Origin: a virus
Length of the DNA stretch: 42,459 bases
Virus record (IMG/VR): IMGVR_UViG_3300025000_000201
Span: 1-42,459 of that record
Direction: 5' to 3' (one strand)
Made by a program: the position numbers and the translations under genes. The first letter of the stretch is position 1. Every line of letters starts with the position of its first letter. Below, piece after piece: positions 1,716-25,092 of the stretch. Under the pieces are notes generated by a model that saw only the letters and a list, made by a program, of their open reading frames with translations, ran no database searches and was not told the DNA's origin.

Positions 1716-2081
1716 TTATGGCATCTCCTGTGCTAAGTTTATCTCAGTCCACTTACCCTCTACTTTTCCCTCTACTCTAAGGTTCTGAGGCTTCATGGAT
1801 TCCTTGACTTTTTCTTCGAGAGTCTTACCTGACAATATCTCTTGTATCTTCTTGTTATGCCATACTACAAACAGGGGGTTCTTAACTAGGCTGCTGAATG
1901 CTTCCTTTATATTCGCTGGTCTCTCCCTGTTGGACTGACCGGTGGACATGGCCCCAGACTCTTTGTGCTTTATCCTAACACAGTTCTGGTGCTTATTTCT
2001 ATACTGCCCACCAGCTCCAGTACCAGAGAAGAACTCAATGTCTAGGTTTTTCTTTCCTACTGAAAACAGTAACTCTTTCAT
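1716..2081 (-). CDS. Peptide chain release factor-like protein (GGQ domain only)
   Basis: The 121-residue protein contains GTGAGGQYRNKHQNCVRI with Gly24-Gly25-Gln26, the catalytic GGQ loop that triggers peptidyl-tRNA hydrolysis on the ribosome. It ends in a basic segment. There are no codon-recognition domains, so it resembles stand-alone RF-1-domain proteins such as ArfB/YaeJ or PrfH-like factors. The start at 2081 has AAGGAGG with a 5-base spacer; the upstream in-frame extension reaches into nrdJ. A role in rescuing stalled ribosomes during infection is the likeliest reading from the family. Confidence 0.85.
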   Translation of the reverse strand: MKELLFSVGKKNLDIEFFSGTGAGGQYRNKHQNCVRIKHKESGAMSTGQSNRERPANIKEAFSSLVKNPLFVVWHNKKIQEILSGKTLEEKVKESMKPQNLRVEGKVEGKWTEINLAQEMP

Positions 2082-2091
2082 GGTATCCTCC

Positions 2092-5000
2092 TTAAATGTC
2101 GCAGCTACCACCTGCACAAGCGTACTCCTGCATACCAGTAGTGGTATCCTCTGTTTCTACAAAGAGTTCCCAAGCTATCGAGGGGAATCCCTCAGTGGCT
2201 TGTTTATACTGATCCTCAGTTATCTCTTCATATGGAGCGTTTTCATAGACAGACTCTCCATCTGCCCTAGGGAAGAAACTAAGTCCTCCAATAGAATCCC
2301 AGTGATCCCATACCCACTGAGCTATAGCGAAGTATTCATTGTCGCTATAGTAAATAGTCTGACTAGGATTCCCATCGCACCAATGATCTCTGTACACTAA
2401 CCAAAGTTCAAGTTGTTCCATTGCACTCATATCCCTAGTGGTTACTGAGTTCGCTGGAGCAGCTACATAGAAGCTGAATATGTACTTGTCTCCAGAGACA
2501 ACATAGGGGACTCCCTGGTCAACTAAAAAGCCAGTGAGAGAATCCTTGCTATCTTGAGTAACTCTTCGTATGTAGTACCTAGCGTAACGTGGGTGAATGC
2601 CACTCGAAGAGTTAACAAGTTGAGAGACTGTCCCAGATGGTTTAACTAAAGTTAATTGTTTGCTTGGCTGAATCCCAAGCTTATCTGCCCACTCTTTATT
2701 CGTGGCATGTGCTACCTCCTTGAGTAGTGCCAATGTATCTTCTAACTCATTGTCACCAATGTTATACTTTGATTTATTTATACCAAGAATTCCCCATCCA
2801 CTTCTTCCACTCATAACCGGATGATCCATGATACCAGTAAGTGACACCCCTAGTAACCGCTCTTCTTCTGCATTGTCTTTCCAGACCTTACGAAGATATC
2901 GGAAGTTAGTTAGAGTAGACTGAAGTGTACCGAGTATCGTAGCTAATCTAACCTTCTCCTTTAGGGTTTCCAGGGTATCCTCTGGTCTTACAATTACTTC
3001 TGTTAAATTGCATAAACCACCGCTGTCCCGAAGGATTGCCTCACCACAGTTTGCAGCAACTACACCCTCTGTTATCAGAGTGTTAGAATCATACACAGAT
3101 ATATCATATACATCCGTCACTGGTCCAACAGATATATTAACAACCTTAACTCCTTGATTTTTTGTATTTGTCTTATAGATGTCCGGGAGTGGTACTATAA
3201 TTTTAGGCATACCTCCCGTAGTTTTTATAAACTTTCCATCACTCCCTTTAATCATGTGGTTATTTTCACACTCATACCTAGTTAAAGTTGAATGTGTGGA
3301 GTGGTGTAAAGCTTCCAGGTTACTTATTGAATTATCATATGTGTCTCCATTTATATGATGAACATCGAACTCTGGGAGAAGTGGTTCATTCACTCCCTCA
3401 TAAACTAAACGATGTTCCATCCTATAAGACTCATCTGTAGATAATTTTATACCCGAGTATCTTGCTCCTCTCCTTACACGATAGAGGCCATTAAGTTTAT
3501 CTCCTACTTTTAAATCTTTAGCTTCAACCCACTCATTCTTTCCTTTATCAATGCCTTTATCTGGTCCCAGTTTAAACACTTTATGATCTGGAGTAACAGT
3601 TAATACTCTCCCAGTATTCAAGTGTATACGAATAGTTTCAGCATTCTCTTTAGTTTTCCAAGATGGTGTTGCCAAAGAGATACAGAGATTCCCAGCTTTA
3701 TCCATTGAATAAAGATAAGTAGGTTCAACTATATCTTTTATCTTCATCCTGCCATTCACTGTTTCAACCTCAGTATCTGGATGAAAGCAGGGATTTAGCA
3801 AGTAGTCCCCTTTGTACTCTCTCCCGCAACTCTCAGCCTTTGCTCTCAGAGCTTCTTTGTTTACTATCCCTCGCTCCCCGGACTTAGAGATGTAAAGGTT
3901 TCTCCACTCTTTACTAAAGCTGTCTAAATCCGGCTTCTCAGTATAAGCCACTGAGTTGTTAGCCAGTGTCCGGTAGGGGGCTGTGGAGTACCAGTCACCA
4001 TTTTTTGCTCGGCGCATACGGTCGTCAGTTAAATTTGAGAAACTTATCGTGGCACTCCTGCGTACTCCTCCCGCAATGATCGCATCAGCAATCTTGCAAC
4101 AGATGTCATGGACTTCCAGTGAATTCAGTTTCCGCTTTCCCTCTTTCACTGCTACTCTAAAAGTCCTAACGGTAAAAGACATGAGAGCCCCGAGAGGTTC
4201 AGGGCCACTAGCACGGCCTCCAAAGGTACGAAGTCGAGAGCCAGCAGGACGAATAGAGCTAAGGTCCCACTTAGGAATATTCCCGGAATAGAGCATAGAG
4301 ATAAGTTCTTTGTAACCAGTTGACCAGCCGATCTTACTGTCTTTGACTTTGATAACTGTCTCTGATTCATTAAGCTCCTCCGGTAAGTCCGGTAGCTGAT
4401 TGACATACTGTCGCTCTACTGAGAACCCAACTCCACACCCACAGCTCAGGAGATACATTATCTCATCAAAACACCTTGGGTGATTGATCGCTATGGCTGC
4501 ACAGTTTCCAGTAACTAATCCCCTTTCTAAAACAAAAGTATTTGTATCTGGGACTTCTGCACAAAATACTTCCTCTTGTATTTCTAGTTCTTTAACAGAG
4601 TCTATACAGAACTTAGATATCAATGGAATAAATTTGTCTCGCTTTCGTTTGATGAGGAAGTCCTCAGATGTGAGGGATGTTCTATCTATTGATATTGTAA
4701 AGGTTCTCCTGGTTCTAGTACCAAAATTAGTTTTACTTCCAAGCTCTCTCACGTTCTGAGCAACATACCCCCAACGAGCAGAGTGTTTTAAAAACCAGTT
4801 TGCATACTCCTCAGATAAGCACAAGGATACATGAGAATTTTTTCCAACATGACAATCTGCTGCAAGCCAACCTCGGAAGAAACCAACCATATAATCTTCG
4901 GTTTCATTATCATAATCTGGTAAATCTTTTAAATCGTGGGTCTTAGCGAAGTCAGAGAAAAGTTTAATTACAGGATCACCATTTGCAGAAGGTGGGTAAC

Positions 5001-5748
5001 TAATCCTAACTTCTGGTAAGAATTCAAAGTATTTAGAAAACTCTTCTTGGTCTTCGCATACTCTTATCATATAGCCTTTTACTCTTTTCTGTGAGTACTG
5101 TGTTGTACCATCCCCAAAGATAATACCATGTACACACCCTAATTTATAATCTATAGAGTCGGTATCAACATTTCTTTTATAGCTTGCAAAAGGTATTTTA
5201 GTCCCGCCCTTCCCAGGCTTTAGTTGGTCTGTTGAAAGCACATTCCCGTCTACATCAACCCATCTATGATTGCCTGTGCAATACATAGTATGCATCGTGT
5301 TTGAGTTCTTTTTTAGAACAACCTTTCTGATGCTCTGTTTGCCGTAGCATTTAAACTTTGCTTTCGTCCACTTAGAGTTTACATTAAGTACGGTTGCCTC
5401 CTTATCTTCCAAGGCAGAGATGGGAAGATACCCAAACTCTTTTGTTAACACCTTAGTAGTGCCAACGACTGGATTGAACCCGGATACGTTGTCCCTCTCC
5501 AACGCTGGCCCAGCAGTCATTAGAGCCCTCATGCTAGGCATGATATCCATACTCTTTACTGCTTTAATAAGAGGCTCCCACCCATTTCCAGAGGGAACAT
5601 CTGAGTCTACCCACCCTTGAAACTTATCTTGCATTAAGAAGAAACCGAAGTACCGATCTACTGTCTCTTCCCAAGTCTCCCTTCGCTTCTCAGAGTCAAG
5701 GTATCTAGCGTATTTACTAAGATGAATATATTTCTGAAGGTCATTCAT
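2092..5748 (-). CDS. nrdJ: Adenosylcobalamin-dependent (class II) ribonucleotide reductase with two inteins
   Basis: The precursor of 1218 residues would yield an enzyme of about 648 residues after removal of inteins at 93-415 and 654-900. Extein features match monomeric class II reductases of the Lactobacillus leichmannii type: RPAGSRLRTFGGRASGPEPL, GGVRRSA, NPC-GE (thiyl-radical Cys after the second intein), LCNLTEV, VKPSGTVSQL and a C-terminal CAGGSC redox pair. The enzyme makes deoxynucleotides from ribonucleoside triphosphates using B12. Each intein sits directly before a catalytic cysteine (Cys416 and Cys901 of the precursor). A dispersed palindrome at 2487-2500 encodes VSGDK near the C-terminus. 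The start has AGGAGAG upstream. Confidence 0.95.
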   Translation of the reverse strand: MNDLQKYIHLSKYARYLDSEKRRETWEETVDRYFGFFLMQDKFQGWVDSDVPSGNGWEPLIKAVKSMDIMPSMRALMTAGPALERDNVSGFNPVVGTTKVLTKEFGYLPISALEDKEATVLNVNSKWTKAKFKCYGKQSIRKVVLKKNSNTMHTMYCTGNHRWVDVDGNVLSTDQLKPGKGGTKIPFASYKRNVDTDSIDYKLGCVHGIIFGDGTTQYSQKRVKGYMIRVCEDQEEFSKYFEFLPEVRISYPPSANGDPVIKLFSDFAKTHDLKDLPDYDNETEDYMVGFFRGWLAADCHVGKNSHVSLCLSEEYANWFLKHSARWGYVAQNVRELGSKTNFGTRTRRTFTISIDRTSLTSEDFLIKRKRDKFIPLISKFCIDSVKELEIQEEVFCAEVPDTNTFVLERGLVTGNCAAIAINHPRCFDEIMYLLSCGCGVGFSVERQYVNQLPDLPEELNESETVIKVKDSKIGWSTGYKELISMLYSGNIPKWDLSSIRPAGSRLRTFGGRASGPEPLGALMSFTVRTFRVAVKEGKRKLNSLEVHDICCKIADAIIAGGVRRSATISFSNLTDDRMRRAKNGDWYSTAPYRTLANNSVAYTEKPDLDSFSKEWRNLYISKSGERGIVNKEALRAKAESCGREYKGDYLLNPCFHPDTEVETVNGRMKIKDIVEPTYLYSMDKAGNLCISLATPSWKTKENAETIRIHLNTGRVLTVTPDHKVFKLGPDKGIDKGKNEWVEAKDLKVGDKLNGLYRVRRGARYSGIKLSTDESYRMEHRLVYEGVNEPLLPEFDVHHINGDTYDNSISNLEALHHSTHSTLTRYECENNHMIKGSDGKFIKTTGGMPKIIVPLPDIYKTNTKNQGVKVVNISVGPVTDVYDISVYDSNTLITEGVVAANCGEAILRDSGGLCNLTEVIVRPEDTLETLKEKVRLATILGTLQSTLTNFRYLRKVWKDNAEEERLLGVSLTGIMDHPVMSGRSGWGILGINKSKYNIGDNELEDTLALLKEVAHATNKEWADKLGIQPSKQLTLVKPSGTVSQLVNSSSGIHPRYARYYIRRVTQDSKDSLTGFLVDQGVPYVVSGDKYIFSFYVAAPANSVTTRDMSAMEQLELWLVYRDHWCDGNPSQTIYYSDNEYFAIAQWVWDHWDSIGGLSFFPRADGESVYENAPYEEITEDQYKQATEGFPSIAWELFVETEDTTTGMQEYACAGGSCDI
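2487..2500. repeat. Dispersed palindrome site 2
   Basis: TGTCTCCAGAGACA, inside nrdJ (encodes VSGDK). Confidence 0.9.
3049..3789 (-). other. Intein 2 of NrdJ: Cys1 intein with HNH endonuclease
   Basis: This is precursor residues 654-900 (247 aa), starting P|CFHPDTEVETVNG and ending VVAAN|C. Block B is TVTPDH, and block F is VYDISVYDSNTL. An HNH-type endonuclease core, VHHINGDTYDNSISNLEAL, lies at about residues 796-814. The penultimate residue is Ala instead of the usual His, and the block F His position appears to be Asn. Such exceptions are known in active inteins, but splicing efficiency cannot be judged here. The insertion is in the NPC-GE loop, exactly before the cysteine that carries the thiyl radical. 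Confidence 0.9.
4504..5472 (-). other. Intein 1 of NrdJ: class 3-type (Pro1, Trp/Cys/Thr signature) with LAGLIDADG endonuclease
   Basis: This is precursor residues 93-415 (323 aa). It begins N|PVVGTTKVLT and ends VTGN|C. The first residue is Pro, not Cys or Ser. Block B is TGNHRW (Thr158, His161, Trp163), block F is VFCAEV with Cys396 where Asp is usual, and block G is T-G-N with Thr413. This is the Trp-Cys-Thr triplet defined for class 3 inteins, in which the block F Cys makes the first branched intermediate. Between the splicing blocks are two LAGLIDADG-type motifs, GIIFGDGT (about 208) and GWLAADCHV (about 293). The insertion point is immediately before the extein cysteine equivalent to Cys119 of the Lactobacillus enzyme. 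Confidence 0.88.
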
Positions 5749-10468: not shown

Positions 10469-10543
10469 TGGTGTTCCCAGATGGAGTCGAACCAGCCGTC
10501 AATCTGTTATAAGCAGATCGCTCTTCCGTTGAGCTATGGGAAC
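10469..10543 (-). tRNA. tRNA-Ile (anticodon TAT)
   Basis: It has a 7-bp acceptor stem GTTCCCA/TGGGAAC, anticodon arm ATCTG-CTTATAA-CAGAT, T-loop GGTTCGACTCC, and CCA encoded in the DNA. Read literally it decodes AUA; a TAT anticodon has no C34 to be changed to lysidine. AUA is often rare in hosts. Confidence 0.9.
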
Positions 10544-10564
10544 ATTTGAATCGCTTAATGCAAC

Positions 10565-10640
10565 TGGAGCCACAGGGAAGACTCGAACTCCCAACCCTCT
10601 GCTTACAAGGCAGTTGCTCTACCGTTGGAGCTACTGTGGC
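10565..10640 (-). tRNA. tRNA-Thr (anticodon TGT)
   Basis: Acceptor GCCACAG/CTGTGGC, D-arm GCTC/GAGC, anticodon loop CTTGTAA, T-loop TTCGAGT, discriminator T and encoded CCA. The outer pair of the anticodon stem looks mismatched (A/A). Confidence 0.9.
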
Positions 10641-10653
10641 TTTACTCATGAAT

Positions 10654-10729
10654 TGGCTCCAGAGCCAGGACTCGAACCTGGAATACCTTGGTTAACAGCC
10701 AAGTGCCTTTCCAATTAGACTACTCTGGA
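10654..10729 (-). tRNA. tRNA-Asn (anticodon GTT)
   Basis: Acceptor TCCAGAG/CTCTGGA, anticodon arm CTTGG-CTGTTAA-CCAAG, discriminator G as usual for Asn, T-loop TTCGAGT and encoded CCA. Confidence 0.92.
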
Positions 10730-10755
10730 GTGTATTCTGTGTTACATCTAACGCT

Positions 10756-10830
10756 TGGCAGAGGTAGATGGGATCGAACCACCGTTACCGGAGTCAAAGT
10801 CCAGTGCCTCAACCACTAGGCTATACCTCT
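10756..10830 (-). tRNA. tRNA-Gln (anticodon TTG)
   Basis: Acceptor AGAGGTA/TACCTCT, anticodon arm CTGGA-CTTTGAC-TCCGG, discriminator G, T-loop TTCGATC and encoded CCA. It is the first tRNA downstream of the 89-bp control-like element. Confidence 0.92.
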
Positions 10831-10855
10831 GTGTGTTCTTATGTAACCCAAGGTA

Positions 10856-10944
10856 TCTGTCTCTAGTACCTAGACCCTTAGCTTAGTACTACCTAGCTAT
10901 TATCTAGATTCCCTACTAAGCAATCGTCTCTAGAGACAGATTCC
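10856..10944 (-). promoter_or_regulatory. 89-bp repeated intergenic element, copy A (between tRNA-Leu and tRNA-Gln)
   Basis: On the minus strand, the first 29 bases (to GATTGCTTAG) and the last 19 bases (TCTAGGTACTAGAGACAGA) are identical to copy B at 28049-28137, while the central 41 bases differ but have equal length. The first end holds a full palindromic site, the second a half site. The position before tRNA and gene blocks suggests a promoter-operator module. No consensus sigma-70 promoter is shared by both copies. Confidence 0.7.
10925..10938. repeat. Dispersed palindrome site 6
   Basis: CGTCTCTAGAGACA in the 89-bp element copy A; 12-bp core perfect, non-coding. Confidence 0.9.
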
Positions 10945-10962
10945 ATTGGCCTCTCTGGCATC

Positions 10963-11048
10963 TGGTCCAAGCGGAGAGACTCGAACTCTCATGCTCTAAC
11001 GAGCGTCAGTTCCTAAGACTGATGCGTATTCCGTTCCGCCACACTTGG
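10963..11048 (-). tRNA. tRNA-Leu (anticodon TAG)
   Basis: The gene is 86 bases with a long variable arm (CGCTCGTTAGAGCAT), acceptor CCAAGTG/CGCTTGG, anticodon arm TCAGT-CTTAGGA-ACTGA, discriminator A and encoded CCA. Confidence 0.9.
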
Positions 11049-11071
11049 ATACTACTGAACTCACTGGTATC

Positions 11072-11149
11072 TGGTCGGGGTAGCTGGATTTGAACCAGCG
11101 AACCTTCCGCTCCCAAAGCGGGCGCTCTACCAGACTGAGCTATACCCCG
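11072..11149 (-). tRNA. tRNA-Pro (anticodon TGG)
   Basis: Acceptor CGGGGTA/TACCCCG, anticodon loop TTTGGGA between CCGC and GCGG, T-loop TTCAAAT, discriminator A and encoded CCA. It is the first tRNA of the cluster in transcription order. Confidence 0.92.
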
Positions 11150-21535: not shown

Positions 21536-23143
21536 CTATTGCCCCTTTGACGCTTCATTATCCAACCCAGAAACCTTATACATCTCCATCACTGCCATTC
21601 TCTCGTTATCATCAGCAATCTTGTTGATGAAAGCCAAGTTGACCGCAGTGAGCATAGGAAGTTTCATCTTAGATACCATATCCAATATAGCAATGAGACC
21701 CCTTGGGGACATAGTGAGAGCCAGTTCCCCGGACTTGTAAGCGTTCCTAATAAGCCCAGCGAACTTCACCAGCTTACGGATCACTGGTTTCCTGACTCCA
21801 GTGAACTTATGCTTCAGCATCTCTACTTCATCATCTTCCTTCAGGTAGTCGAGATGAGCGTTGATACTGATCCGATCCAGCATACTCGTATCCTGAATCT
21901 GAGTAGCTGCAAACTTCTCCATGGAATCCCCAGTTCCCTTGACGTTATCAGTGAGGAACATCTGGAACTCTGGAGCTGGCCTAATGATCTTATCCGCAGA
22001 AGTCCCAGGCATATCATCTATAGTCAGGTAACCGTTCTTCTCATACAGATGCTGCATAGCCATAGCGATATGAGGGGGAATCTTGAATACTTCATCAATC
22101 GTAATCATGAAACCACCCATGAGCCCTTGGGGGAGGAGACCGTACTTGAACTCCATACCTCCCTCAGATGCCCAAGGGAATCCCAGGAAACTGGAGCTTT
22201 CCAAGTCGCCTCTACCACCGAGTCTCATATATGGCTGCCTAAGATGAGCTGCAAACTGCTCTACAGCAGTGGTCTTCCCTGTCCCCGGAGGGCCAGTAAT
22301 CAGCATCTTTTCCCCCAACAAAAGGGCAACCACCATACCTTCGAGTACCTCTGTATCCCAGAGGTAGTCAGGATTAATAGCTGGAATATGCTGCCTCACT
22401 GCTTCCGGGAAGTGAGTTTCAGCATATACTGGGATGTCATAGTCAGATCCAGAGAGAGGGAGCTTTCCGCCAGTGATTGTGGAGAGCTTAATTACAGTTT
22501 TAGGGGCTGGAGCATGTGTCTTAGAAGCCCGTTTCTTGGGCGTCTTAGTTTCTGTCTCTGGAGACACTTCGGAGACCACTGGAATCTCTGGTTCCAGAGC
22601 AGCAGTCTCCTCTTTCTCTTTGGCTTCTCCAGGCACTTCAATAATGAATTTGCACTTAGCAGCTATCTGAGAAGCAATAAGATTCACATGCTCCTTAGCG
22701 ATATCTTCGTCTACTTCTGCATCACTCATGTAGTCGGATACCACATCACTAAGGATATCCCGAGAAGGAGCGTGGAATTTCCCACTAGCATCTACACACT
22801 TCTTAAGTTCCTCCATGACAGTCCACTGAGCGGAATTCAGAGTGACTGTCTCAGATACTACTGGAACCGTTGGGGTACCAGTAGCCTCTACAGCTTTGCA
22901 CTTATCAAAAGGGATAAGCACCTTTTTCCCAGTTCCGTCTGTCCTACACAGATACGAGCCAGAGCTCTTTCCAACTACCTCAAAGCTGGCTCCAGTCTTG
23001 AAGCCGAAGTAATCAGTGGTCAATACTACTCTCATAAGTTTTCCTCCGTTACTTTGTGGTTCCTCTGATTCTTTGGTGAACCCGTTGTTACCAAAGAAAA
23101 GCTCGTTTAACTCGTTAGCCCATGAATTAACAGTATCACTCAT
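21536..23143 (-). CDS. MoxR/CobS-like AAA+ ATPase
   Basis: The 535 residues end in an AAA+ module with Walker A GPPGTGKT (284-291), Walker B MITIDEV (346-352) and sensor-like FLTDNVKGTGD. The N-terminal 220 residues carry small folded parts and a disordered Ala/Pro/Lys linker. The palindrome at 22553-22566 encodes VSPET in that linker. It overlaps the HExxH/vWA gene by ATGA. Such pairs act as chaperone-like remodelling or metal-insertion machines (CobS/CobT, MoxR/vWA). A direct role in B12 synthesis is not shown; the B12-dependent NrdJ makes it worth noting. Confidence 0.87.
   Translation of the reverse strand: MSDTVNSWANELNELFFGNNGFTKESEEPQSNGGKLMRVVLTTDYFGFKTGASFEVVGKSSGSYLCRTDGTGKKVLIPFDKCKAVEATGTPTVPVVSETVTLNSAQWTVMEELKKCVDASGKFHAPSRDILSDVVSDYMSDAEVDEDIAKEHVNLIASQIAAKCKFIIEVPGEAKEKEETAALEPEIPVVSEVSPETETKTPKKRASKTHAPAPKTVIKLSTITGGKLPLSGSDYDIPVYAETHFPEAVRQHIPAINPDYLWDTEVLEGMVVALLLGEKMLITGPPGTGKTTAVEQFAAHLRQPYMRLGGRGDLESSSFLGFPWASEGGMEFKYGLLPQGLMGGFMITIDEVFKIPPHIAMAMQHLYEKNGYLTIDDMPGTSADKIIRPAPEFQMFLTDNVKGTGDSMEKFAATQIQDTSMLDRISINAHLDYLKEDDEVEMLKHKFTGVRKPVIRKLVKFAGLIRNAYKSGELALTMSPRGLIAILDMVSKMKLPMLTAVNLAFINKIADDNERMAVMEMYKVSGLDNEASKGQ
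22553..22566. repeat. Dispersed palindrome site 11
   Basis: TGTCTCTGGAGACA, in the CobS-like linker (encodes VSPET). Confidence 0.9.
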
Positions 23144-25092
23144 ACCAAAAACTCCTTTAGTACATTGAACAGCACCATATCCAAGTCTTCTGGATCATTC
23201 ACTGCACAGTGGTGTTTGTAGTACCTCTTCACAACGTCTGTGGTCACTCCGATTCCGACTAGATCGATGGGAGTCTTTGTTTCAATATCGCTACAGACTT
23301 TCTTCAGGTACCGATCAGCATTACCACCATTCGCTCCACACGGAGAACCATCAGAAAGGACAATAAGCAGCTTACGGTCTTCTTTTCGAGTCAGTAGCCG
23401 CTCCGCTGCATAGAGTATTGAATCCCCATCACAGTTGTAGTGCATATTGACCTGCTGAGATGACATAATATCTGTCATCATCTCTTTGGATACCCGTTTC
23501 CCATAGGGCTTAAAGACGTAGGTCGTCAGCTTATTGTGGGCAGTGAACCCAAGTATCTCATGCTCGATTTGAAGAGCAGTGAGAGTCTCATTTAACGCTA
23601 CTACACAAGCAGACCCAATAGCGTACTTGGAACCACTCATGGAACCAGAGCAGTCCAGCAAGAGTTCAACTGCTGAGTTCTTGTTGAGTCTGGAGCCGTC
23701 TTTCTTCTTGAATATCCGTGGAGTTGCCCCTGGAATCTTGTTACCAGAGTACACTCTATGAACATTCTTTGAATGGATTTTCCCTTGTGTCTGTCCATAG
23801 CTATACGTTGAAACTGACATGGTTTGGAGATACTTAGCCACTTGTTTTGATACTGTGGAGTTACCGATAGCAGTAACAATAGCTTCCTTCTGGCCCGCAT
23901 CTACTCTCTTCTCAGAGATGTCGATTACATCATGAGTCGGATAGGGTTCATACGGTCTGTTTCCACCATACTTTTCAACCTTAGTCTCTTCCATAGGAGC
24001 TGTCATTTTAACGGCTATGGCTTTCTTGATTGTCTCTAGTTGAGCTGAGGTAATCTGCTTGTCTTTCATCTCCCACTTAGCATCAATCAGCTTCTCGTTT
24101 CCCTCGGCGTTAGTGGGCTGTCCCCCATGCTCACCTTGGTTATGGTCAAAAGCAGAGTCAGGAGTGCCACTGTGATCCTTGACACCAGAGCCATCTTTGT
24201 TCTGGTTCCCTTGGCCATCTTGGCCCTCCCCTTGGCCCTCTTTAGGCTCTCCTTCACCTTCTCCCTCCTGAGGCTCTCCCTGGCTCTCTTGATTGCCTTG
24301 GCTCTGTCCCTGGCCCTCCTGAGACTTTCCCTGGTCCTCCTGAGACTTTCCTTTGCCGCTCCCTTGTCCGCTTGGCGGTGGTGGAGTATACCCGACGAGT
24401 TTGAGCAAGTCAAGTACGATACCAGCCTGTATCTCTGACTCTTGACCTGGGCTCTGGAGAACTGAGTCCATCCTTGTCTCCAGAGACAGTTTGTCGAACG
24501 CTTCGTAGAAGTCCTTATGGATACCACGGTACTGGGTCATATCCAGAGCTTCCATAGGATGTCCCATCCATTTCTGTCTGCACTCAGCAGTGTAAGCGAA
24601 CAGTGACAAGAACAGCTCATCAATGGGATCAGTGGATGCAGTGAGCAAGGGATCAACATAGGCACCCTTGCTCTTCTTCGTAAGGTCTAACTCAGCTCTT
24701 CCAGTGTGCATCAAGAACCGTCCGATAGAAAAGAGCTGGTCTATCCTGTCGAATTTACCGAACATTGCTTTCTCGCAATGAACGTCCATTAAAAGGTTGT
24801 TAATAAGACACACTAATTGGTCTTCGAAATTCAGATGCTTGGTCAGCTCAAAGTAAGACCAGTGCATTTTCTCCATAACATGAGAAAGCTCATGAAAACT
24901 GAGAAACCAAAAGAACTCTTCATCGTAGCCAGAGGGAGGCGGTAAGGTGATTTCACAGTGCCCCCGTTTCGTCATAGTCGCTTTTGGTTGATTACAGTAT
25001 GGCTCCCATCTTACGGAGATGTTCCCGGAAGTCGCCAGCGATACCAAGAACTTCTTCTGGGCTTCACTGGTTAGTCCAATAGGGATTGCCAT
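23140..25092 (-). CDS. CobT-like protein: HExxH domain plus von Willebrand A domain
   Basis: The 650 residues open with a helical domain containing FHELSH (His67, Glu68, His71), a zinc-peptidase-like motif. A low-complexity Gln/Gly/Glu stretch (about 240-330, with QEDQGKSQEGQG) follows, then a vWA domain with the MIDAS motif DCSGSMS (Asp480, Ser482, Ser484) and VLSDGSPCG. The partner is the MoxR-like ATPase encoded next. HELSH may be catalytic or structural. The palindrome at 24475-24488 encodes LSLET. CGGAGG precedes the ATG. Confidence 0.87.
   Translation of the reverse strand: MAIPIGLTSEAQKKFLVSLATSGNISVRWEPYCNQPKATMTKRGHCEITLPPPSGYDEEFFWFLSFHELSHVMEKMHWSYFELTKHLNFEDQLVCLINNLLMDVHCEKAMFGKFDRIDQLFSIGRFLMHTGRAELDLTKKSKGAYVDPLLTASTDPIDELFLSLFAYTAECRQKWMGHPMEALDMTQYRGIHKDFYEAFDKLSLETRMDSVLQSPGQESEIQAGIVLDLLKLVGYTPPPPSGQGSGKGKSQEDQGKSQEGQGQSQGNQESQGEPQEGEGEGEPKEGQGEGQDGQGNQNKDGSGVKDHSGTPDSAFDHNQGEHGGQPTNAEGNEKLIDAKWEMKDKQITSAQLETIKKAIAVKMTAPMEETKVEKYGGNRPYEPYPTHDVIDISEKRVDAGQKEAIVTAIGNSTVSKQVAKYLQTMSVSTYSYGQTQGKIHSKNVHRVYSGNKIPGATPRIFKKKDGSRLNKNSAVELLLDCSGSMSGSKYAIGSACVVALNETLTALQIEHEILGFTAHNKLTTYVFKPYGKRVSKEMMTDIMSSQQVNMHYNCDGDSILYAAERLLTRKEDRKLLIVLSDGSPCGANGGNADRYLKKVCSDIETKTPIDLVGIGVTTDVVKRYYKHHCAVNDPEDLDMVLFNVLKEFLV
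24475..24488. repeat. Dispersed palindrome site 12
   Basis: TGTCTCCAGAGACA, in the CobT-like gene (encodes LSLET). Confidence 0.9.

Follow-up and report, generated by a model that had tools for sequence, protein, structure and literature searches.

How can a working ribonucleotide reductase (RNR) arise from a gene in which two inteins each stand directly before the codon of an active-site cysteine, and in which one of them begins with a residue that cannot take the usual first step of splicing? The question is raised by a locus in a 42,459-base virus sequence (IMG/VR record IMGVR_UViG_3300025000_000201), the whole of which is called the window here. An open reading frame (ORF) on its minus strand, at 2092–5748 and open throughout its 1218 amino acids, is a class II ribonucleotide reductase, NrdJ, of the RTPR type, twice interrupted by inteins. 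It matches the NCBIfam model TIGR02505 (RTPR) at 230.5 bits (E 3e-68), against a curated cut-off of 340 and with the inteins still in the query. The reading favored here, at a probability of about three in four, is that two independent mobile inteins occupy invariant codons of the NrdJ active site, of which intein 1 would splice by a class 3-type route from its internal Cys304 and intein 2 by the class 1 route, the inactive precursor being a by-product of homing. Both inteins probably splice, and the route of each is predicted from its residues. The features on which the argument draws are as follows, all on the minus strand.

5473–5748, minus: N-extein of NrdJ, amino acids 1–92, C-terminal end SGFN, set from the ORF and its relatives.
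4504–5472, minus: intein 1, 323 amino acids (93–415), with Pro1, a LAGLIDADG nuclease, Trp-B12/Cys-F4/Thr-G5 and the end TGN.
5470–5472, minus: residue 1 of intein 1, Pro (codon CCA), where class 1 inteins have Cys or Ser.
5260–5268, minus: block B His69-Arg-Trp71 of intein 1 (His is B:10 and Trp is B:12), invariant in the alignment of inteins beginning with Pro.
5110–5112, minus: Asp121 of intein 1, acidic residue of LAGLIDADG motif 1.
4855–4857, minus: Asp206 of intein 1, acidic residue of LAGLIDADG motif 2.
4561–4563, minus: Cys304 of intein 1, block F:4, the putative initiating nucleophile, in 9/9 aligned sequences.
4501–4503, minus: +1 Cys of intein 1, equivalent of RTPR Cys119 (1L1L alignment via the relative L002; 75/75).
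3790–4503, minus: middle extein of NrdJ, amino acids 416–653, C-terminal end LLNP.
3049–3789, minus: intein 2, 247 amino acids (654–900), putatively class 1, with Cys1, an HNH_3 nuclease and the end VAAN, which has no penultimate His.
3046–3048, minus: +1 Cys of intein 2, equivalent of RTPR Cys408, the thiyl radical cysteine of NPCGE (1L1L alignment; 78/78).
2095–3048, minus: C-extein of NrdJ, amino acids 901–1218, with the Cys419 equivalent and the C-terminal CAGGSC pair.

The boundaries and insertion points of both inteins are real, since relatives exist with genuine empty sites. Contig L002, whose extein 3 is 93% identical to that of the window, has an uninterrupted NrdJ with neither intein; L082 has intein 1 and an empty intein 2 site; and L003, L013, and L014 carry relatives of intein 2 (48–51% identical) with the intein 1 site empty. 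The exteins (92, 238, and 318 amino acids; G+C 0.45, 0.48, and 0.44) would join to a mature NrdJ with 12 cysteines, and the inteins (323 and 247 amino acids) have G+C values of 0.38 and 0.36. An earlier sequence-only reading had described two unrelated inteins at 3049–5472, and this holds: read along the window, the span opens exactly with the last codon of intein 2 and closes with the first codon of intein 1, and the two have no sequence likeness (best BLASTP E 0.5). It had also given them different nucleases, which agrees with the Pfam match of intein 2 to HNH_3 and, for intein 1, with the LAGLIDADG motif residues and superposition on PI-PfuI and PI-SceI.

Relatives of intein 1 were gathered from scans of viral contigs and GTDB genomes and from named phages, with seven actinophage-type inteins added, giving 182 unique full-length sequences. 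This sample is biased, as both these inteins and patterns containing the block F Cys served as seeds for the scans, and some scans comprise the best 80 matches. Twelve of the 182, from 13 contigs including the window, combine Pro at position 1 (Pro1) with the Trp-Cys-Thr residues and Cys at +1, and all are located at the NrdJ Cys119 site.

Intein 1 begins PVVGTTKVLT and ends Thr321-Gly-Asn323, followed by Cys. As residue 1 is Pro, the class 1 first step is impossible. Class 3 inteins (PMC5222942, PMC7891396; papers are cited here for the parts of their text that were covered) have no Cys, Ser or Thr at position 1 and carry Trp-B12, Cys-F4 and Thr-G5. Position 1 of intein 1, fixed by the empty site of L002 and the family alignment, has none of the three nucleophiles, and W71, C304, and T321 supply the signature in 9/9 aligned Pro1 inteins. 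Pro1, Trp71, Cys304, Thr321, and Asn323 are all invariant in these nine, which are 47–53% identical to that of the window, as would be expected under selection for splicing. The +1 residue departs from the usual, although not obligatory, Ser or Thr of class 3, being Cys in all 12 Pro1 inteins; Bvi IcmO was given in 2016 as the only known class 3 intein with Cys+1 (PMC5222942). The sequence-only reading was right to call intein 1 a LAGLIDADG intein, but missed both the absent N-terminal nucleophile and the class 3 signature.

Nothing in Pfam matched intein 1 above threshold, while its C-terminal block matched NCBIfam intein_Cterm. An AlphaFold2 model built with nine sequences (pLDDT 86.8) superposes over its whole length on PI-PfuI (Z 20.9, 299 residues, rmsd 4.4) and on PI-SceI (Z 18.1, 300 residues, rmsd 4.5). 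Its splicing domain matches the class 1 NpuDnaE intein (Z 19.3, 130 residues, rmsd 1.8) as well as the class 3 inteins of mycobacterial DnaB (6bs8, Z 17.5, 122 residues, rmsd 1.9; 6rix, Z 17.4, 126 residues, rmsd 2.4), so that fold alone does not tell the class.

By the proposed route, Pro1 would be unable to start splicing, and Cys304 (F:4), aided by His69 (B:10), Trp71, and Thr321, would attack the N-junction at its Asn-Pro bond. Transfer of the N-extein to the +1 Cys, the future Cys119, would follow, and cyclization of Asn323 would allow the exteins to join. In intein 2, Cys1 would act first and hand over to the +1 Cys that becomes Cys408, as in class 1. NrdJ would be inactive until both inteins are out, which is better understood as a side effect of homing at conserved codons than as a control switch. 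Intein 2 is, by its residues, a class 1 intein with an HNH_3 nuclease in place of LAGLIDADG: it matches Pfam Intein_splicing (E 5e-10) and HNH_3 (E 6e-8) and also intein_Nterm, and has Cys1, a TxxH block B (TPDH), a C-terminal Asn and Cys+1. It ends in Ala-Asn, where the relatives in L003, L013, and L014 have His-Asn.

Several points weigh against a class 3 route for intein 1. Its splicing, and the branched intermediate on block F, are predicted from sequence. The Pro1 clade has neither the F:13 nor the G:6 His, so Asn cyclization must receive other help; the block F His column holds Asn or Ser in this clade (His in 0/23 rows, which include repeat copies of one contig), while 5/6 of the Cys1 inteins at the same site keep His. 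The AceL NrdHF split intein (PDB 6zgq) also has neither helper histidine, and yet splices (PMC7891396). The tree described below was computed without known class 3 inteins lacking Cys1, such as those of DnaB and Snf2. There is finally a class 2-like alternative, in which Cys+1 attacks the N-junction directly and the F:4 Cys is a bystander. A Pro1 without a nucleophile and the Cys+1 of all 12 Pro1 inteins, as in class 2, would fit it. However, class 2 inteins have Ala1, Asp at F:4 (PMC4031507) and no internal Cys nucleophile, whereas intein 1 has Pro1 and a Cys at F:4 accompanied by Trp-B12 and Thr-G5, and an F:4 mutant of the Cys+1 class 3 Bvi IcmO intein gave precursor only (PMC5222942). We consider the class 2-like route improbable.

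The position of the inteins within NrdJ bears on whether they act as switches. The sequence-only reading had placed both directly before catalytic cysteines, and would have been refuted by an alignment showing other residues there. In an alignment of the intein-free L002 protein with PDB 1L1L, Cys119 corresponds to the +1 residue of intein 1 and Cys408 to the +1 residue of intein 2 (numbering counted from the alignment), and Cys419, Cys731, and Cys736 are also present. These five are the catalytic cysteines of RTPR, in their established roles, so both +1 residues are catalytic and the placement is not refuted. In the best 80 loci of the NrdJ scan, Cys is found at column 119 in 75/75, at column 408 in 78/78 and at column 419 in 79/79 alignable sequences.

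That a precursor with either intein in place should be inactive, as had been argued, is a reasonable expectation. The further proposal, that splicing of both inteins answers redox state or zinc and so controls dNTP synthesis, is unsupported, and we regard it as quite improbable. It can draw on the inhibition of class 3 N-cleavage by H2O2 (PMC7664689), on reported effects of oxidative stress and of zinc on mycobacterial DnaB splicing (PMC6195587, PMC7360933) and on the redox-active nature of the +1 cysteines in NrdJ. However, the number of inteins varies among close relatives (two, one or none), and all 75 testable loci of the same best-80 set have an unbroken Cys119 site. Location is also accounted for by the need for Cys+1 together with conserved DNA. 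The NrdJ-locus set has seven near-invariant cysteines, five of them catalytic, so, for inteins that require Cys+1 and home into conserved DNA, a catalytic Cys is the expected landing place in about five cases out of seven, and two inteins at such cysteines are unsurprising. Such a location bias has been stated as general for inteins (PMC7765530).

Intein 1 has also been transferred laterally and recently, which again speaks against gating. Between the window and L082 it is identical at 966/969 bases, whereas the exteins are only about 80% identical (570/714 for extein 2 and 782/954 for extein 3; Fisher p 3e-63); the 60 bases on either side match at 55/60 and 54/60. The acidic LAGLIDADG residues are kept in the Pro1 rows (Asp121 in 23/23, Asp206 in 22/23), and both inteins may well encode active nucleases. 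Among the 12 Pro1 contigs readable at Cys408, four are interrupted there (the window, L122, L131, and L162) and eight are not, which counts against a link between the two inteins; L129, the 13th Pro1 contig, is truncated and was left out of this count.

Mobile elements recur in the NrdJ active site. The L122 NrdJ ORF (1586 amino acids) contains three inteins, namely a Pro1 intein at Cys119, a class 1 intein of LAGLIDADG type at Cys408, and a third with Cys1 and Trp-Cys-Thr at HNPS/CTIY nearer the C-terminus. In L014, which likewise has an intein at Cys408, a group I intron (4158–4431, Rfam RF00028, 67.8 bits against a gathering score of 50, the insert extending to about 4995) is located in the Cys419 region, a third mobile element for the same active site; an ORF within the insert resembles, by eye, a zinc-finger/HNH-type nuclease. 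At the Cys408 site of L008 the matches to exteins 2 and 3 are separated by 188 extra bases, a length not divisible by three, which may be an intron remnant or an alignment effect.

That intein 1 is instead a decayed, non-splicing intein like Arsp-FB24 Arth_1007 is the least probable alternative, since, although Pro1 and the lack of both helper histidines look like decay and one class 3 pseudogene intein is on record (PMC3196547), the class 3 residues are all invariant in sequences as divergent as those above, the gene retains its full reading frame and the catalytic cysteines of NrdJ, and copies of the intein have spread recently.

If intein 1 does follow the class 3-type route, where did a Pro1 intein come from? 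Most of the sampled sequences (136/182) have Cys1, Trp-Cys-Thr and Cys+1, in hosts judged from flanks and motifs to be NrdJ/NrdA, NrdD, a DnaG-like CFGC context and others; a further 34 show other patterns or did not align. Seven rows gapped at position 1 were counted neither as Cys1 nor as Pro1 (the second-site inteins of L099, L104, and L114; L272; and three rows of the actinophage-type set, A5). In a maximum-likelihood tree of 42 rows, computed without residue 1 (support as bootstrap/SH-aLRT), the 12 Pro1 rows group together as a single clade (100/99), itself nested in a clade of 19 rows (95/90) that also holds seven Cys1 rows. Judged from the flanking sequence, six of these seven (L158, L160, L161, L159, L164, and L226) occupy the same NrdJ site, while L163 does not. 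A quick tree of 116 rows agrees, except for the misaligned row of L140. The second intein of this contig was set aside as a Pro1 case and omitted from the 42-row tree; by its sequence it is most likely misaligned at the N-end and starts two residues later, at CGDV.

As the Pro1 clade lies within a group of Cys1 inteins with Trp-Cys-Thr, six of which share its insertion site, Cys1 was apparently lost after the internal nucleophile existed, so that class 3 would have been reached in steps. The simplest history would be that Trp-Cys-Thr was already present and that Cys1 was lost once, by Cys to Pro; this takes at least two base changes (TGY to CCN), with Ser (TCY) a possible intermediate. Tori and Perler, writing in 2011 on class 3 inteins of phage origin, are said to have reported an N-terminal nucleophile and Trp-Cys-Thr together. 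The Pro1 NrdJ inteins may be a separate and recent origin of class 3, in which Trp-Cys-Thr was gained, Cys1 then gave way to Pro1 (perhaps via Ser1) at an unchanged site, and Cys+1 was kept as the catalytic Cys119; for this we see even odds. An independent second origin is plausible and no more, because the classical class 3 inteins without Cys1 were not placed in the tree.

This proposal differs from published views. Class 3 has been held to be monophyletic (PMC3196547, PMC4031507). One study argues that conversion from class 1 would demand several improbable changes at once, its Trp-Cys-Thr graft on gp41-1 having given almost no splicing, and proposes a separate, protease-like origin (PMC7664689). 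If the independent origin is true, class 3 would not be one monophyletic group of that kind. The same-site pair of Cys1 and Pro1 inteins, provided that the Pro1 member splices, would be a natural counter-example to improbable conversion. Cys1 and Pro1 inteins of one family, at one insertion site and with the same Trp-Cys-Thr, make the order of events testable with natural proteins. For splicing chemistry, the Pro1 set offers further class 3 candidates that have Cys+1 and an Asn-Pro scissile bond. The two-intein arrangement itself is ordinary for phage biology.

Profile comparison links the Pro1 set closely to a Cys1 set led by NrdD inteins (hhalign probability 100, E 6e-82), although that set contains the window and P318 sequences and the comparison is not fully independent; against the actinophage-type Trp-Cys-Thr set the probability is only 73 (E 3e-5). 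Among the matches listed in 50,697 phage records there was no Pro1 member, the nearest being the Cys1 intein of Thermobifida phage P318, and literature searches, which did not extend to supplements, found no Pro1 NrdJ inteins. A profile search, run to E values as high as 10, did not match the PDB class 3 chains 6bs8, 6rix, and 6zgq. Class 3 inteins lacking Cys1 were also sought in actinobacteria, where the matches listed were other inteins, and with the actinophage-type set, where the best 80 were all Cys1 (+1 residue Ser in 36, Thr in 35, Cys in 8, and Gln in 1).

The last scan outlines a large actinophage-type intein family (L348–L427, L339–L344), found in portal, terminase and methylase proteins in annotated members, with Cys1 and an H-x-W block B in 80/80 and mostly Ser or Thr at +1. 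Inteins with both Cys1 and Trp-Cys-Thr are thus widespread among viruses. In the NrdJ-like ORFs of L099, L104, and L114, the second-site inteins at the NP/C position mix class marks, having a Ser start, Asp at F:4, Trp or Phe at B:12 and Thr at G:5.

The closest known systems are the Cys1 Trp-Cys-Thr inteins of phage RNRs, namely NrdJ of Thermobifida P318 and NrdD of Morganella MP1, Klebsiella FBKp34 and Vibrio V6Aob. They share with intein 1 its family, LAGLIDADG nuclease, Trp-Cys-Thr and Cys+1, and the P318 intein is at the corresponding NrdJ position by its flanks, but all keep Cys1. Bvi IcmO, likened here by its description, is a class 3 intein with Cys+1, but is a mini-intein in another protein. 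The AceL NrdHF intein is likewise class 3, in an RNR gene and of likely phage origin (PMC7891396), and superposes on the model of intein 1 (Z 15.1, 129 residues, rmsd 2.2); unlike intein 1 it is split, lies in the beta subunit, and has Ala1, Met at B:12, no LAGLIDADG domain and a flanking Ser+1. The mycobacterial DnaB inteins differ in having no nuclease domain in the solved chains and Ser+1 in Msm and Mle DnaB (PMC5222942). Pro1 is not wholly unprecedented, as functional inteins beginning with Pro have been described and the phiCbK TerL intein begins with Pro and has a Cys in block F (PMC3556154; sequence inspected). That intein differs from intein 1 in its Phe at B:12, Val at G:5 and His-Asn followed by Ser+1, and is remote, with only 14 bits against the model of the intein 1 family. 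Phage RNR genes with several inteins or many introns are already known: split RNR genes were reported in 16/128 RNR-bearing phage genomes, and the parts of that paper covered contain no class 3 assignment and no Pro1 inteins (PMC3653736).

Other features of the window were noted. Two adjacent minus-strand genes, at 21536–23143 and 23140–25092, encode CobS-like (NCBIfam TIGR01650, E 1e-34) and CobT-like (Pfam CobT_C, E 6e-34) proteins, cobaltochelatase-type proteins in a phage with a B12-requiring RNR; both are under the NCBIfam cut-offs. Overlapping the end of the NrdJ ORF, 1716–2117 (minus) encodes a small protein that has an RF-1 domain (Pfam RF-1, E 6e-11) and a GAGGQ motif, a candidate release-factor-like or ribosome-rescue protein. 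Six tRNA genes, for Ile (tat), Thr, Asn, Gln, Leu, and Pro, are found at 10469–11149 (minus).

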